The notes beneath the pieces are model-generated. The model was not told the origin of the DNA. It saw nothing but the letters and a program-made list of their open reading frames with translations, and made no database searches. A stretch of DNA of 42,979 bases from NCBI GenBank assembly GCA_022340745.1, contig JAJDNL010000066.1:1-42979 (forward strand), read 5' to 3'. This DNA is from Deltaproteobacteria bacterium (lineage in GTDB: Bacteria > Desulfobacterota > Syntrophobacteria > BM002). Within the stretch, counting starts at the first letter, position 1; each line of letters opens with the position of its first letter. A program made the position numbers and the translations under genes. This document shows positions 6,334-23,115 of this stretch, piece by piece.

Positions 6334-6446
6334 AGATTGTAGAATGTAGATTTCAGATTTTAGGTCTCAGGTAGGCCTAAGTCTAAATAGACAATTCATA
6401 ATATGGTGGAACCAACAATCTGCAATCTCAAATCTTAAATCTCACA
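6334..6446. repeat. Opposed heptamer arrays, unit TAGATTT / AAATCTA
   Basis: Left array about 6334-6372 reads TAGATTG, TAGAATG, TAGATTT, CAGATTT, TAGGTCT, CAGG. Right array about 6418-6446 reads CAATCTG, CAATCTC, AAATCTT, AAATCTC, i.e. the same unit reversed. The arrays separate the genes at 6063 and 6452. Confidence 0.8.
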
Positions 6447-6451
6447 TGTTC

Positions 6452-9398: not shown

Positions 9399-12300
9399 AT
9401 GGTATTAATAAAAAAGATCCGTTCTGCTCTGTTGATCTGTTCAATATGGGCCGTTGTTTTTTGGTCACCGCTGCCAGGGAATACAGCTTCCATGCCTCAC
9501 CACCACATAGAGATCTCGTTTGATCTCGCCGAACACAAGATTTATGGAACAGTGGATGTTGCCCTTCCTAGCACTGTACGGGCAGTAGTGGTTGGCAGCG
9601 ATTTGCAAATAACCAGGTTCACGATCAATGGAAAAGCTGCGAGCGCAAAGGTGCAAGATGGTCGGCTCCATCTGCCCAAGCATCAGGACCGGACCCGTGT
9701 ACTTATTGAGTATGAAGGGATTTTTCTTAATGAAACCGGCGGAAATCTAGAGAACATTATCAGTGGAGAGGGCGCCTTTTTGCTCTCAGATTGGTATCCC
9801 ACTGCTGAGGCCGATCTTTCCTATTTCTCCCTGCGAGCAAATATTCCCAAGCCCTTTCATGCGGTATCTGAAGCCGACCATATAACAACTAAGGATGTGG
9901 GCAATGAAAAGCAGGTGACTTTTGATTTTCCACATCCGGTGGACCATATTCACCTTATCATGGCACCGTATGTGGTGAGCAAAGACCGGTATGGAAACGT
10001 TGAGCTAGAGACCTACTTGCTCCCCGAGGACAAGGGTCTGGCAACTCGCTACCTGGACTACACCAAGAAGTACCTGGAGATGTATGAGGAGATGCTAGGG
10101 CCCTACCCTTTTCGTCGCTTTGCTGTGGTTGAAAACATTCTGCCCACCGGCTACGGCATGCCGACTTTCACCCTGCTGGGCCGGCAGGTACTCAAGCTGC
10201 CTTTTATTCCGGAGACCTCACTGGGTCATGAAATCCTTCACTCCTGGTTTGGTAATTCTGTCTATGTGGACTACGCAAAGGGCAACTGGTCTGAGGGCTT
10301 GACCTCATATCTGGCCGATCATTACTACGATGTCTTGAAAAAAAAGGGGTGGCAACATCGCAAGAAGCTTATCGAGAATTACGAAAGTTACGTTCACCAA
10401 GACAATGAAATTTCCATCCGAGAGTTCGTGAGCGGAGGGGATCGCGCTTTACGGGCGGTGGGTTATGGCAAGACGGCCATGTTCTTTCATATGCTCAAGA
10501 ACCGTGCCGGTGAAAAAGCATTCGCTGAGGGGCTGAAGCGGCTGGCTCAGGAGCAGCGGTTTCGGATAACCTCGTGGCAGGATCTGGAAACGATTTTTTC
10601 ACAGACGGCCGGGGAGGATCTCAGTAGTTTTTTTGCATTTTGGCTCAACAACAAGGGAGCGATGGCGGTAAATCTCAGCAAGATTCGGTTGAATCAGCCC
10701 GGAAGTGACTATAATCTGCAATTCGAAATTCGGGTTGCGAACAGTATAATGCCTGTGTTCATCCCGGTGGTTATCCATACCGAGAACAATCAAGAGAAAC
10801 ATATCTTGCCCGTTTCAGCCTCAGAGCAAACCCTTTCTTTGCCTTTGAAGGAAAGACCCCAAAAGATGGTTGTAGATCCAGACTACGACCTTTTTCGCAG
10901 ATTGGAGCCAGCTGAGAGAGGAGCGGTGTTAAGTCGTCTTTTGGGAGATCCGACCCGAACCATTCTCTTGCCTGCAACCAATCAGGAAATCTATGAGACC
11001 CTGATTCAAGAATTGCTGAATCAGGGTTTTAAGACCGAGAGTGCAGAAGAGATCGATCACTCCACCTTAGGCGAAAAGAGTTTTCTTCTTTTAGGATCTC
11101 AGACTAAACTCAACTCCTTTTTCCCTGGGGTGCCCGAGAACCCGACGGGTTTTTTTCTCCAGATAAGGAAAAATATTCTGAATCCCAAACGCGTCCTTGG
11201 GCTGGTCCTGGCCGAAAATGCTGCTGAGGTGAATGATGTGGGTCGAAAGCTTTTTCACTATGGCAAGTACAGCAGGCTACAATTTTCCGGAGGCAAAATC
11301 GTGGAAAAGGAAACAGCGGCAAGCGACCGAGGGATCCAGCTTGAAGTGGGCCGGCCGGCTACCGGTATTGCCCTTGAGGCAGTGCTTCCCCTATCCGAAA
11401 TTGTTTCCCGGGTAGCCGATAAAACCGTGGTCTACGTGGGCGAAAAGCATGACCGTTATGGCGATCACCTCGTTCAGCTTGAAATGATTCAGGCTTTGCA
11501 CCGGCACCATCCGAAACTAGCCATCGGCATGGAAATGTTTCAACGCCGTTATCAGAGATCATTGGATGACTATATCTCCGGGGAAACCGAGGCCCAGACC
11601 TTTCTCAAGGAGTCCCACTACTTCAACACCTGGAGGTTCAACTATCATTTATATGAAGATATCCTGCTGTATGCCAGGGCTAATAGAATACCGGTTGTTG
11701 CTCTGAACCAGGACAATGAGTTGGTTCGCAAGGTTGCTAACGAAGGGCTGGAAAACTTGAGCCCGAAGGAAAAGGATCGCATACCTGAAGAGCTTGTTCT
11801 TGATGACGAATCGTACAAGAAGCGCCTTCGAAGTGTTTTCGAAATGCACCAGACGAACCTGGATGGCGATAGCATCCCAGAAAAGTTCGAGTACTTTCAC
11901 CAGGCACAGATTTTGTGGGATGAGACCATGGCCGAGAGCATCGCCACCTTTCTGGCAGATCATCCCGACTATTACATGGTGGTACTAGCAGGCAGTGGCC
12001 ACCTAGCTTACGGTGTGGGGATTCCCAAGAGAGTATATCGCAGAATCGGAAAAGACTATGCCATTATCCTGCCCGATCCGGGAGAACCACTGGAGCGTGG
12101 TCTGGCTGACTACATAGTTTTCCCCAGTGAAGTTCAGGCGCCGGAGGATGCCAAGATTGGGATAATGCTGGATTCGTCTGAAGGTTTGCTTACGGTGGCC
12201 GGCTTTACTCCCGAAAGTGGGGCGGAGAAGGCTGGGATGGAAAAGGGTGATATTGTCCTGGCTGTGGATGGTCAGAAAGTGGAGAACATTGACGATCTTA

Positions 12301-12416
12301 GAATTTTTCTGGCCACCAGGCATGTGGATGACGTGATTCGGATCAAGGTGCGGCGCGACGAAGCAACGGTGGAGTTAGAGGTTGAACTCGGGGCTCCAAG
12401 CAGGCACGGAGGATAA
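9399..12416 (+). CDS. Secreted M1-like metallopeptidase / ChaN-like / PDZ fusion protein
   Basis: 1005 residues with an N-terminal signal peptide (MVLIKKIRSALLICSIWAVV), GGAGAA upstream of the ATG. Domain 1 (about 30-500) is gluzincin/M1-like: zinc motif HEILH at 277-281, with the third ligand Glu at 299 in NWSEG, and substrate-site-like ENILPTGYGMPTF before it. Domain 2 (about 665-900) is ChaN/Tiki-like: VVYVGEKHDRYGDH from 677, IGMEMFQRRYQ, and AGSGHLAYGVGIPKR near 868. ChaN-like proteins bind haem or act as metalloproteases (EreA/ChaN superfamily). Domain 3 (about 920-1000) is a PDZ: AGFTPESGAEKAGMEKGDIV. The order suggests an envelope protease with a peptide-binding PDZ. Each domain is known; I do not recall this exact three-way fusion as characterised. 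Confidence 0.85.
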   Translation: MVLIKKIRSALLICSIWAVVFWSPLPGNTASMPHHHIEISFDLAEHKIYGTVDVALPSTVRAVVVGSDLQITRFTINGKAASAKVQDGRLHLPKHQDRTRVLIEYEGIFLNETGGNLENIISGEGAFLLSDWYPTAEADLSYFSLRANIPKPFHAVSEADHITTKDVGNEKQVTFDFPHPVDHIHLIMAPYVVSKDRYGNVELETYLLPEDKGLATRYLDYTKKYLEMYEEMLGPYPFRRFAVVENILPTGYGMPTFTLLGRQVLKLPFIPETSLGHEILHSWFGNSVYVDYAKGNWSEGLTSYLADHYYDVLKKKGWQHRKKLIENYESYVHQDNEISIREFVSGGDRALRAVGYGKTAMFFHMLKNRAGEKAFAEGLKRLAQEQRFRITSWQDLETIFSQTAGEDLSSFFAFWLNNKGAMAVNLSKIRLNQPGSDYNLQFEIRVANSIMPVFIPVVIHTENNQEKHILPVSASEQTLSLPLKERPQKMVVDPDYDLFRRLEPAERGAVLSRLLGDPTRTILLPATNQEIYETLIQELLNQGFKTESAEEIDHSTLGEKSFLLLGSQTKLNSFFPGVPENPTGFFLQIRKNILNPKRVLGLVLAENAAEVNDVGRKLFHYGKYSRLQFSGGKIVEKETAASDRGIQLEVGRPATGIALEAVLPLSEIVSRVADKTVVYVGEKHDRYGDHLVQLEMIQALHRHHPKLAIGMEMFQRRYQRSLDDYISGETEAQTFLKESHYFNTWRFNYHLYEDILLYARANRIPVVALNQDNELVRKVANEGLENLSPKEKDRIPEELVLDDESYKKRLRSVFEMHQTNLDGDSIPEKFEYFHQAQILWDETMAESIATFLADHPDYYMVVLAGSGHLAYGVGIPKRVYRRIGKDYAIILPDPGEPLERGLADYIVFPSEVQAPEDAKIGIMLDSSEGLLTVAGFTPESGAEKAGMEKGDIVLAVDGQKVENIDDLRIFLATRHVDDVIRIKVRRDEATVELEVELGAPSRHGG

Positions 12417-15920: not shown

Positions 15921-16036
15921 AGATTTTTGATTTTAGATTGAAGATTGCAAATTGAGAGTTACTGATTGCAGTATTTAAAATTAGTCCATTTCAGTTAATA
16001 GCAATCTTAAATCTGCAATCTAATATCTTAAATCTT
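15921..16036. repeat. Opposed heptamer arrays, unit AGATTGA / CAATCTT, abutting the selenoprotein 3' end
   Basis: Left array 15921-15955: AGATTTT, TGATTTT, AGATTGA, AGATTGC, AAATTGA. Right array 16002-16036: CAATCTT, AAATCTG, CAATCTA, ATATCTT, AAATCTT. The right array ends one base before the SECIS-like hairpin at 16038. Confidence 0.85.
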
Positions 16037-16037
16037 T

Positions 16038-16056
16038 GACTCATCACCGATGAGTC
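16038..16056 (-). promoter_or_regulatory. bSECIS-like hairpin for the second UGA (also possible 3' stem)
   Basis: On the minus strand GACTCATC-GGT-GATGAGTC forms a perfect eight-base stem closed by a GGU loop. The first G of the loop lies 19 bases downstream of the UGA at 16069-16067, within the range known for bacterial SECIS elements, which need a short stem with a GGU-type apical loop bound by SelB. It sits past the TAA stop, in the 3' untranslated region. Confidence 0.7.
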
Positions 16057-16057
16057 T

Positions 16058-16273
16058 TTACACGCCTCACGAACCCCCATAGCCGATTTCTACCTTTTCA
16101 CCTACAACGATGACAGGCACTTTCCTAACCCCTTTGGACACTTTGAGCATTTCCTCAAGCTTTTCTTTGTCGTTAACGACATCTACATACGTTGCTTTGT
16201 CTCCGTAAGCCGACCTGGCTTTGTTTGTGTAGGGTCAACTGGATTTGCCATAAATAATTACTTCGTCTGCCAT
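16058..16273 (-). CDS. UXX-star glutaredoxin-like selenoprotein with two selenocysteines
   Basis: Minus strand, ATG at 16273 behind a strong GAGGGGGG site, TAA at 16060-16058, 71 residues if UGA codons 13 (16237-16235) and 69 (16069-16067) are read as Sec (U). The product starts MADEVIIYGKSSUPYTNKA and ends EIGYGGSUGV. U13 stands where glutaredoxins have the first Cys of CPYx; VPVIVVGEKVEIG is the conserved cis-Pro strand of the fold. A Sec/Cys third from the end (U-x-x-stop) defines the UXX-star (seleno)protein family as I recall it. Each UGA is followed by a GGU-loop hairpin. Likely a small thiol/selenol redox protein; partner unknown. A conventional caller sees two stops and misses it. Alternative: a pseudogene, judged unlikely. 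Confidence 0.82.
16207..16221 (-). promoter_or_regulatory. bSECIS-like hairpin for the first UGA
   Basis: On the minus strand AAGCC-AGGTC-GGCTT forms a perfect five-base stem with the loop AGGUC. The loop begins 19 bases after the UGA at 16237-16235. The loop sequence matches the GGU-containing apical loop known for the E. coli fdhF SECIS. It lies within the coding sequence, as bacterial SECIS elements do. Confidence 0.72.
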
Positions 16274-16292
16274 AGGTATCCCCCTCTCATTT

Positions 16293-16511
16293 TAGATTTC
16301 AGATTTAAGATTGTAGATTGCAGATTTTACACTTCAAACCAGCAATCTGACATTGTTAGTTCTAGTTCATTGAGTCCTCAGTGGCACTAGCTAACAAGAA
16401 TTCACTTTACGTTAGAAATAGCTTGATCGGCAGGAATATCTCATTATCTATGAAATAGGGTCAATGTTATTTTTTCAAATCTTCAATCTGAAATCTAAAA
16501 TCTACAATCGT
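16293..16511. repeat. Opposed heptamer arrays, unit TAGATTT / AAATCTA, upstream of the selenoprotein
   Basis: Left array 16293-16327: TAGATTT, CAGATTT, AAGATTG, TAGATTG, CAGATTT. Right array 16477-16511: AAATCTT, CAATCTG, AAATCTA, AAATCTA, CAATCGT. The 149-base spacer must contain the selenoprotein promoter or a leader; I see no gene in it. Confidence 0.85.
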
Positions 16512-18882: not shown

Positions 18883-18960
18883 TTTGTCCTTCGGACTCCC
18901 ACCCTTCGGGCGGGTTCCCGGTTTGTCCTTCGGACTCCCACCCTTCGGGCGGGTTCCCTG
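18883..18960. repeat. Two direct copies of a 39-base unit with UUCG hairpins
   Basis: The units at 18883-18921 and 18922-18960 are nearly identical. Each contains GTCCTTCGGAC, a stem closed by a C(UUCG)G tetraloop, followed by CCCACCCTTCGGGCGGG, a second stem with a UUCG loop. In RNA each copy would fold into two very stable hairpins. Confidence 0.75.
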
Positions 18961-18963
18961 TTT

Positions 18964-19055
18964 CAGATTGTAGATTGCAGATTGAGGTGCATGCAATCCT
19001 TACCGTGAGGTACTGAGCTCTTCAATCTAAAATCTGCATTCTTAAATCTAAAATC
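18964..19055. repeat. Opposed heptamer arrays, unit CAGATTG / TAAAATC
   Basis: Left array 18964-18984: CAGATTG, TAGATTG, CAGATTG. Right array 19021-19055: TTCAATC, TAAAATC, TGCATTC, TTAAATC, TAAAATC. Spacer about 36 bases. Confidence 0.8.
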
Positions 19056-19103
19056 TCTGGGCTCCATCACTGCATCAGACTACCCAAATAGGTGTTCATT
19101 TTC

Positions 19104-19298
19104 TCATAAGTCAATAATCATGTCCGCTTCACTACCGCATCTCTCGCAGGTGAAGGATTTCTTTTCTTGTTTCTCCACTCCTGCGGCCTTCTTCTCTGGA
19201 TCTTCCACAGGTACAAGTTCGCAGGTCACAATCATCTCGGCCTCATTGCCGCAGTTCTCGCAGGTGCACACTTCCATCATTTGTCTTTTTTCGGTCAT
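19104..19298 (-). CDS. Small double zinc-ribbon protein
   Basis: 64 residues from the ATG at 19298, chosen for the GGAGAAG site upstream. It holds two similar Cys-rich knuckles: CTCENCGNEAEMI at about residues 11-23 and FTCERCGSEADMI at about 49-61, joined by a charged Lys/Glu linker. The internal duplication (CE.CG.EA.MI) suggests two metal sites or one shared zinc. Function unknown; similar tiny zinc-ribbon proteins are common in sulfate reducers. Confidence 0.7.
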   Translation of the reverse strand: MTEKRQMMEVCTCENCGNEAEMIVTCELVPVEDPEKKAAGVEKQEKKSFTCERCGSEADMIIDL

Positions 19299-19383
19299 GC
19301 TCTTCTCCTTTGATAAGCAAGGTTGCTTTCCGGAATCTGCCCAAATTATAGTATCTGGCCTTGGTGAAAGCAACGAGAAGATT

Positions 19384-19594
19384 TGAGATTGAAGATTGCA
19401 GACTGTAAATTATAGATTTTGGTTGAGGATGAAGAAAACGAGAAATTCCAAATCCAAAACACTCATTCTGCAATCCACAATCCGCCATCGTTGGGACGGC
19501 TCGAGTGCGTTTATTCTTGCATCTTTCCTTCCCTTTCCGTAAGCTACTTTGGGCAATTTAGATTTCAGATTTGTGATGTAAGGTTGCAGTTCTT
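19384..19594. repeat. Heptamer arrays TGAGATT / AAATCCA and TAGATTT; gene-free stretch 19299-19841
   Basis: 19384-19418: TGAGATT, GAAGATT, GCAGACT, GTAAATT, ATAGATT. About 19443-19490: AAATTCC, AAATCCA, AAACACT, CATTCTG, CAATCCA, CAATCCG, the opposite orientation. 19560-19594: TAGATTT, CAGATTT, GTGATGT, AAGGTTG, CAGTTCT. The stretch 19595-19750 shows no recognisable gene or repeat. Confidence 0.7.
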
Positions 19595-22421: not shown

Positions 22422-22625
22422 ATGGCTGGAAATGGCGGAGTTTATGACAGTGTGGAGAATATGTTAGCCAAACTCCACGTACTCAGGGATTCTTGTACAG
22501 GTGTAATTCATCGGGAAGAGTCCAACCCCAATCTAATCTGGTTTCAAGGCGCGGAGGCCATGTTGAAGGAAGCAGTTGATGAGCTGCAAAAAGCACTCAG
22601 TGCTCTGGAGGAGGGTAGCGCATGA
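22422..22625 (+). CDS. Small conserved protein, paralogue 1 of 3
   Basis: 67 residues from the ATG at 22422, with GGAGG upstream (the longer reading from 22368 has none). Begins MAGNGGVYDSVENMLAKLH and contains the core shared by all three copies: LRDSC.GV, then ESNPNLIWFQGAE and LKEAVDELQKALSALE. All helical, Cys25-type conserved cysteine (RDSC). Overlaps the next gene by four bases (ATGA), indicating translational coupling. No family recognised. Confidence 0.75.
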   Translation: MAGNGGVYDSVENMLAKLHVLRDSCTGVIHREESNPNLIWFQGAEAMLKEAVDELQKALSALEEGSA

Positions 22626-22825
22626 GTAACCAAGGCGAAGTTTATGACAATGTGGAAGGCATTCTAGCCAAGCTCCACGTACTCAGGGATTCTTGTGCTG
22701 GTGTCATGCATAAGGAAGAGTCCAACCCCAATCTAATCTGGTTTCAAGGCGCGGAGACTTTGTTGCAGGAAGCGGTGGATGAGCTGCAAAAAGCTCTCAG
22801 TGCTCTGGAGGGGGGGAGCGCATGA
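22622..22825 (+). CDS. Small conserved protein, paralogue 2 of 3
   Basis: 67 residues, MSNQGEVYDNVEGILAKLH. About 85 percent identical by eye to copy 1 over the core (LRDSCAGVMHKEESNPNLIW, then LQEAVDELQKALSALE). Its four-base ATGA overlaps with both neighbours. Arose by tandem duplication; the DNA is also closely similar, so the duplication is recent or maintained by conversion. Confidence 0.75.
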   Translation: MSNQGEVYDNVEGILAKLHVLRDSCAGVMHKEESNPNLIWFQGAETLLQEAVDELQKALSALEGGSA

Positions 22826-23115
22826 GTAACCAGGGAGAACTCTATGACCGTGTGGAAAGCATAGTAGCCAAGCTATATGTGCTGCGGGACTCTTGCACAG
22901 GAATACTACACACTGAAAAGTCAAATCCCAATTTGATTTGGTTTCGCGGGGCAGAGACTTTGCTGCAGGAGGCAGTGGACGAGCTGCAAAAAACACTTGG
23001 TGCTCTTGAAAGTGGCGAAGCAGCTGAACCGGCCGCGGTCGAGGATACAGAAGAGGAAGTTCCGGCTGAATCGGATGATGAGCAGGAAGAAAGTTCATCT
23101 GAAGAAGACGAATGA
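22822..23115 (+). CDS. Small conserved protein, paralogue 3 of 3, with acidic tail
   Basis: 97 residues. The first 67 match the other two copies (MSNQGELYDRVESIVAKLY, SNPNLIWFRGAE, LQEAVDELQKTLGALE) but with more divergence. A 30-residue acidic extension follows (EEEVPAESDDEQEESSSEED), absent in the others. The tail is disordered and strongly negative, which may serve for partner binding. Last gene of the apparent operon, convergent with the MerR-cyclase-like gene. Confidence 0.72.
   Translation: MSNQGELYDRVESIVAKLYVLRDSCTGILHTEKSNPNLIWFRGAETLLQEAVDELQKTLGALESGEAAEPAAVEDTEEEVPAESDDEQEESSSEEDE

Follow-up and report, generated by a model that had tools for sequence, protein, structure and literature searches.

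Locus and reading frame

The window, meaning the whole stretch of DNA analysed here (42,979 nucleotides, from an assembly of 3.9 Mb that is 95.8% complete), carries on its minus strand a short gene with two in-frame UGA codons. The features of the locus are as follows.

16058..16273, minus strand: UXX-star selenoprotein gene, 71 codons plus TAA (based on translation with UGA read as U, the match to NF041114, and dN/dS)
16280..16288, minus strand: Shine-Dalgarno-like GAGAGGGGG, purine-rich, before the ATG (read directly from the sequence)
16273, minus strand: ATG start
16235..16237, minus strand: UGA codon 13 (Sec), opening the UPYT active-site motif
16207..16221, minus strand: putative SECIS 1, AAGCC-AGGUC-GGCUU, inside the reading frame
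16067..16069, minus strand: UGA codon 69 (Sec), third residue from the C-terminus
16060-16058, minus strand: TAA stop
16038..16056, minus strand: SECIS 2, GACUCAUC-GGU-GAUGAGUC, just past the TAA stop

Re-reading of the sequence bears out the preliminary description of this locus in its account of a 71-codon minus-strand frame, preceded by a ribosome site and closed by TAA, in which codons 13 and 69 are UGA. With UGA translated as selenocysteine, the product is MADEVIIYGKSSUPYTNKARSAYGDKATYVDVVNDKEKLEEMLKVSKGVRKVPVIVVGEKVEIGYGGSUGV* (71 residues). The UGA at codon 13 is followed by PYT, giving a Sec-containing active-site motif of the UxxT type. The 3′ end of the gene reads UGA-GGC-GTG-TAA, that is, U-x-x-stop, which agrees with the earlier placement of the second UGA third from the end.

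Family membership

The decoded protein matches NF041114 (“UXX-star selenoprotein family 1”, NCBIfam) with 108.8 bits against a curated cut-off of 72 (E 1.1e-31), and the alignment covers the whole length of the profile (1–70 of 70) over 67 residues. This is the group of proteins to which the preliminary description had pointed. The NF041212 Uxx_star subfamily model is also passed (74.4 versus 66 bits); searched directly against genomic DNA it scores 59.7 bits, below its cut-off. NF041212, NF041211 (family 2) and NF047338 (family 3) likewise describe small glutaredoxin-like proteins with a C-terminal U/C-x-x-stop, but families 2 and 3 differ in that the decoded protein lies far under both of their cut-offs, scoring 46.6 versus 100 bits and 50.5 versus 97 bits, respectively. 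The Pfam glutaredoxin model PF00462 is detected at 27.6 bits in a six-frame search of the genome despite the internal UGA, and reaches 38.5 bits (cut-off 22.9) in the frame with both UGA codons decoded, which assigns a glutaredoxin domain to the protein.

The gene is a new member of an already catalogued family. NF041114 is listed in a 2026 review as “Distant Grx-like protein 1”, with the motif UxxT and two Sec residues (PMC13188914), and the same name is carried by an earlier review (PMC9312934). Because these reviews already list the family, the arrangement of two Sec residues in so small a protein, described earlier as remarkable, is upheld as a layout but is not new. The product resembles NF041114 in fold, length, UPYT site, C-terminal G-G-[ST]-U-x-x-stop and the presence of two Sec; no difference from that family was found, and the gene in the window is an ordinary member.

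Selenocysteine machinery

The source assembly contains selA (629.9 bits), selB, and selD, which itself contains an in-frame UGA (in GGUACK), together with a tRNA-Sec gene (selC; anticodon TCA), whose 75.2 bits exceed the gathering score of 47. The complete SelA/B/C/D set implied by the preliminary description is thus encoded; absence of selB or selC, which it had named as evidence against its own reading, was looked for, and both genes are there. A search of the window with Rfam at gathering thresholds returned no match.

Relatives and sequence conservation

A first set of relatives comprised 18 loci obtained by searching genome contigs, 17 of which were used. Across the phylum, 99 of 395 genomes hold an NF041114 member over the cut-off, and among the matches listed most members contain two UGA codons. 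Within the genus the gene is carried by 6 of 10 genomes, in every case with two UGA codons.

Codon 13 was compared in 105 distinct relatives: 93 carry UGA, 11 encode Cys, and a single one has TAA, so that 104 of the 105 encode Sec or Cys at this position, in agreement with the earlier claim that the first UGA stands in place of the active-site Cys. The TAA (L013:4037-4039) is on a low-coverage Nitrospirae contig, in a gene that is otherwise undamaged; either the assembly is wrong there or the gene has been lost. At the C-terminal site all 105 relatives have UGA and none has Cys; in L023 this UGA is reached only after an apparent frameshift. This site was scored with a simple pattern in 100 relatives and by eye in L023, L068, L120, L122 and L128, all five of which keep the C-terminal UGA with altered spacing or surroundings. 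Apart from the single TAA at codon 13, therefore, the survey disclosed no homologue with neither Sec nor Cys at the two sites, which the preliminary description had regarded as the other finding that would speak against it. An insertion of ∼12–15 residues precedes the C-terminal GGT-U motif in L120 and L122, and the motif is retained.

In an alignment of 60 members, with Sec and Cys counted as one letter, the invariant positions include G9, Sec13, P14, T16, P53, V54, G64 and Sec69, and G66 and G67 are nearly invariant.

Hairpins downstream of the UGA codons

The published bacterial SECIS model requires a loop of 3–9 nt, a stem of 4–16 bp, a G in the first two loop positions, a UGA-to-loop spacing of 16–37 nt, and a minimum free energy of −7.5 kcal/mol or lower (PMC13188914). 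Hairpin 2, with 8 bp, the loop GGU, and a loop start 18 nt after UGA69, meets every one of these rules; its energy is −10.8 kcal/mol as folded and −9.3 kcal/mol as an isolated hairpin (z −2.6 to −4.2), and its stem score ranks 3rd among the 1,622 UGA trinucleotides of the window. In relatives, the UGA69 hairpin passes the full model in 74 of 100, with the loop 16–25 nt after the UGA, compared with 50 of 1,050 (5%) random UGA trinucleotides in the same loci (Fisher p 4e-60). No excess of stems was seen at mid-gene and 3′ (shifted) control positions in the relatives. The 5′ arm occurs as 88 different sequences in the 100 relatives with the fold kept, indicating that it is the shape of hairpin 2 and not its sequence that is conserved.

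Hairpin 1, with 5 bp, the loop AGGUC, and a loop start 18 nt after UGA13, is modest by itself: it fits the published model in loop, stem and spacing, but its energy of −6.0 kcal/mol misses the −7.5 kcal/mol limit, its z-score varies from −0.65 to −1.76 with the stretch that is folded, and its stem score ranks 27th among the same 1,622 trinucleotides. Only 4% of relatives pass the published energy rule at UGA13. With the limit relaxed to −5 kcal/mol, a hairpin is present in 57% of relatives having UGA13, mostly at spacing 18, compared with 14% of random UGA trinucleotides. At the same limit it is also found in 4 of 11 relatives having Cys13 (36%; p 0.22 versus 57%). Since Cys13 relatives show the hairpin nearly as often, part of hairpin 1 may reflect coding constraint. 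We therefore do not accept hairpin 1 as a full SECIS by the published model, given the energy and the lack of a significant difference from Cys13 relatives; it is nevertheless the probable SECIS of UGA13, weaker than hairpin 2. The preliminary description had assigned to each UGA a hairpin with a GGU-containing loop beginning about 19 bases downstream. This stands in full for hairpin 2 and falls short for hairpin 1 on energy only, and in each case the distance from UGA to loop is 18 nt.

Both UGA codons as sense codons

Two in-frame UGA codons could in principle mark a pseudogene that has acquired two nonsense mutations. Comparison refutes this reading, whose probability we regard as negligible. 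Between the two UGA codons dN/dS is 0.078 relative to the nearest relative (L007, a homologue 89% identical) and ∼0.11 relative to two further relatives, so the segment is, judged by its substitutions, under purifying selection, and the same UGA codons recur in most relatives across the phylum. A second possibility is that only UGA13 is recoded and UGA69 is a true stop, giving a product of 68 residues at the small cost of the two codons beyond it. Those two codons are conserved, however, encoding GV in 66 of 100 relatives with V or I as the second residue throughout; UGA69 is never replaced by TAA or TAG in relatives, though the stop that follows switches freely; and a base-paired hairpin with a GG/GU loop lies in the right register behind UGA69 in spite of its 88 different 5′ arms. 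Termination at UGA69 thus appears highly improbable.

The comparisons show that both UGA codons are read through, that the machinery is present and that hairpin 2 is a conserved RNA structure; 16273..16058 is almost certainly a true double-selenoprotein gene with both UGA codons read as Sec. We are highly confident of the gene and of its two Sec residues, moderately so of hairpin 1, and have little confidence as regards the exact chemistry. The family match and the Sec machinery support the overall reading of the locus in the preliminary description as a double-selenocysteine UXX-star glutaredoxin-like gene, and its judgment that such a combination is unlikely to arise by chance is backed by the PF00462 score from the six-frame search, the NF041114 E-value, the low dN/dS relative to L007, and the rank of hairpin 2. 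The gene is a clear, well-supported double selenoprotein of a kind that standard gene callers would miss.

A probable double meaning of UGA within nine nucleotides

The gene in the window stops at TAA and not at UGA. In 100 relatives, by contrast, the stop after U-x-x is UGA in 53, TAA in 29 and TAG in 18 (UGA-stop examples are L008, L010, L012, L014, L016 and L020–L022), and the protein tree requires a minimum of 28 changes between UGA and UAA/UAG. L008 and L012 read UGA-GGC-GUG-UGA-UGA. UGA serves as stop in 43% of neighbouring genes versus 53% in the relatives, with p 0.04 when relatedness is ignored; enrichment of UGA stops in the family is not claimed on this uncorrected value, which is taken to mean only that UGA is not avoided.

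In the 53 relatives with a UGA stop, the SECIS model is satisfied at UGA69 in 41 but at the stop UGA in only 2, which suggests that spacing probably decides the meaning. Measured from the U of UGA69, the loop starts on average 21.8 nt away; from that of the stop UGA the distance is therefore ∼12.8 nt. About 11 nt of mRNA are covered inside the ribosomal tunnel (PMC4513850), so the hairpin should be largely melted with the stop UGA in the A site. The distance to the hairpin thus probably determines whether a UGA is read as Sec or as stop. It is likely that about half of the family carries a Sec-UGA followed nine nucleotides on by a stop-UGA, that only the spacing to one shared hairpin separates the two, and that evolution has not avoided termination at UGA. 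A third Sec at the terminal UGA was considered and rejected, because the frame beyond it has no common length or evident shared sequence and the spacing fails the SECIS rules. No earlier report of a bacterial Sec-UGA and stop-UGA three codons apart was found in the open literature, which is not proof of absence. If this reading is true, the family offers a naturally occurring way to gauge the precision with which the bacterial SECIS places SelB, and the relatives are an existing set of variants in which to measure how much positional tolerance bacterial selenocysteine insertion has and to study the choice between SelB and RF2.

Structure and proposed function

The AlphaFold model, computed with 60 sequences, has a mean pLDDT of 88 and a pTM of 0.71 and shows a short glutaredoxin fold that lacks the final helix. 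Its matches in the PDB are glutaredoxins (3ic4, TM 0.74; 7c12, 0.75; 7c10, 0.73; E. coli Grx3 3grx, 0.75), which, with the PF00462 match, confirms the earlier description of the frame as glutaredoxin-like. Selenoprotein glutaredoxins with UxxC, together with the bacterial Grx1 type represented by 7c10 and 7c12, have the same fold (TM 0.73–0.75) and the nucleophilic residue in the same place. Unlike these, the protein encoded in the window is of the monothiol type (UPYT), without a resolving Cys in the motif, and it stops right after the Gly-Gly loop with a second Sec at the C-terminus.

Following established SelB biology, SelB would bring Sec-tRNA(Sec) while held by a hairpin with a GG/GU loop 18 nt behind each UGA; UGA13 and UGA69 would both be decoded as selenocysteine, and translation would end at the TAA two codons after the second. 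Sec13 in UPYT would then stand where a monothiol-type (CPYT-like) glutaredoxin has its nucleophilic Cys, and Sec69 would most likely either resolve Sec13, through a diselenide or mixed selenide, or provide a second ligand. Position 13 corresponds to the attacking residue of glutaredoxins. The Gly-Gly near the C-terminus corresponds to part of the glutathione-binding loop of ordinary glutaredoxins, and Sec69, two residues past it, would lie near that loop. For these two reasons we favour a redox role as fairly probable, the protein acting as a selenol-disulfide oxidoreductase, with Sec69 resolving or supporting Sec13. Direct pairing of Sec13 with Sec69 is a more tentative prediction.

The main rival to this assignment is that the two Sec residues jointly hold a soft ion such as Hg, As or Cu and do not cycle electrons. 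Sec residues in UXX-star proteins may be metal ligands according to a review (PMC13188914), and a C-terminal Sec that is never exchanged for Cys would suit a ligand. Position 13 nevertheless coincides with the catalytic site of glutaredoxins, the Pro and Thr that come after it in the motif are invariant, and no recurring metal-resistance neighbour stood out in ∼107 loci, which makes metal or metalloid binding rather unlikely. Clustering of 645 neighbours from these loci likewise gave no conserved partner pointing to a substrate: the commonest cluster occurs at 17 of the ∼107 loci in varying positions, and the neighbour clusters look lineage-specific. No conserved neighbour discriminates between the redox and the metal-binding role; the oxidoreductase is the favoured function.

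Other features of the window

Degenerate short heptad repeats, (NNAATCT)n, occupy intergenic gaps as facing pairs, each consisting of a minus-strand run, a spacer and a plus-strand run.

15921-16035: heptad-repeat pair, directly flanking the selenoprotein gene on one side
16286-16510: heptad-repeat pair, directly flanking it on the other side
6335-6448: heptad-repeat pair
18959-19056: heptad-repeat pair
19379-19482: heptad-repeat pair

The heptad pattern has 362 exact 18-base matches in the assembly compared with 0 for a reversed control pattern, indicating that the repeats are a dispersed palindromic element family. Elsewhere in the window, a 200-base unit is present in ∼2.9 tandem copies that are 81% alike (22434-23006), and a single protein of 1005 residues combines M1 peptidase, ChaN/Tiki haem-binding and PDZ domains (9399-12416). 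A small protein at 19104-19298, for which the YyzF match is sub-threshold only, contains two similar Cys-pair motifs, CENCGNEAEMI and CERCGSEADMI.
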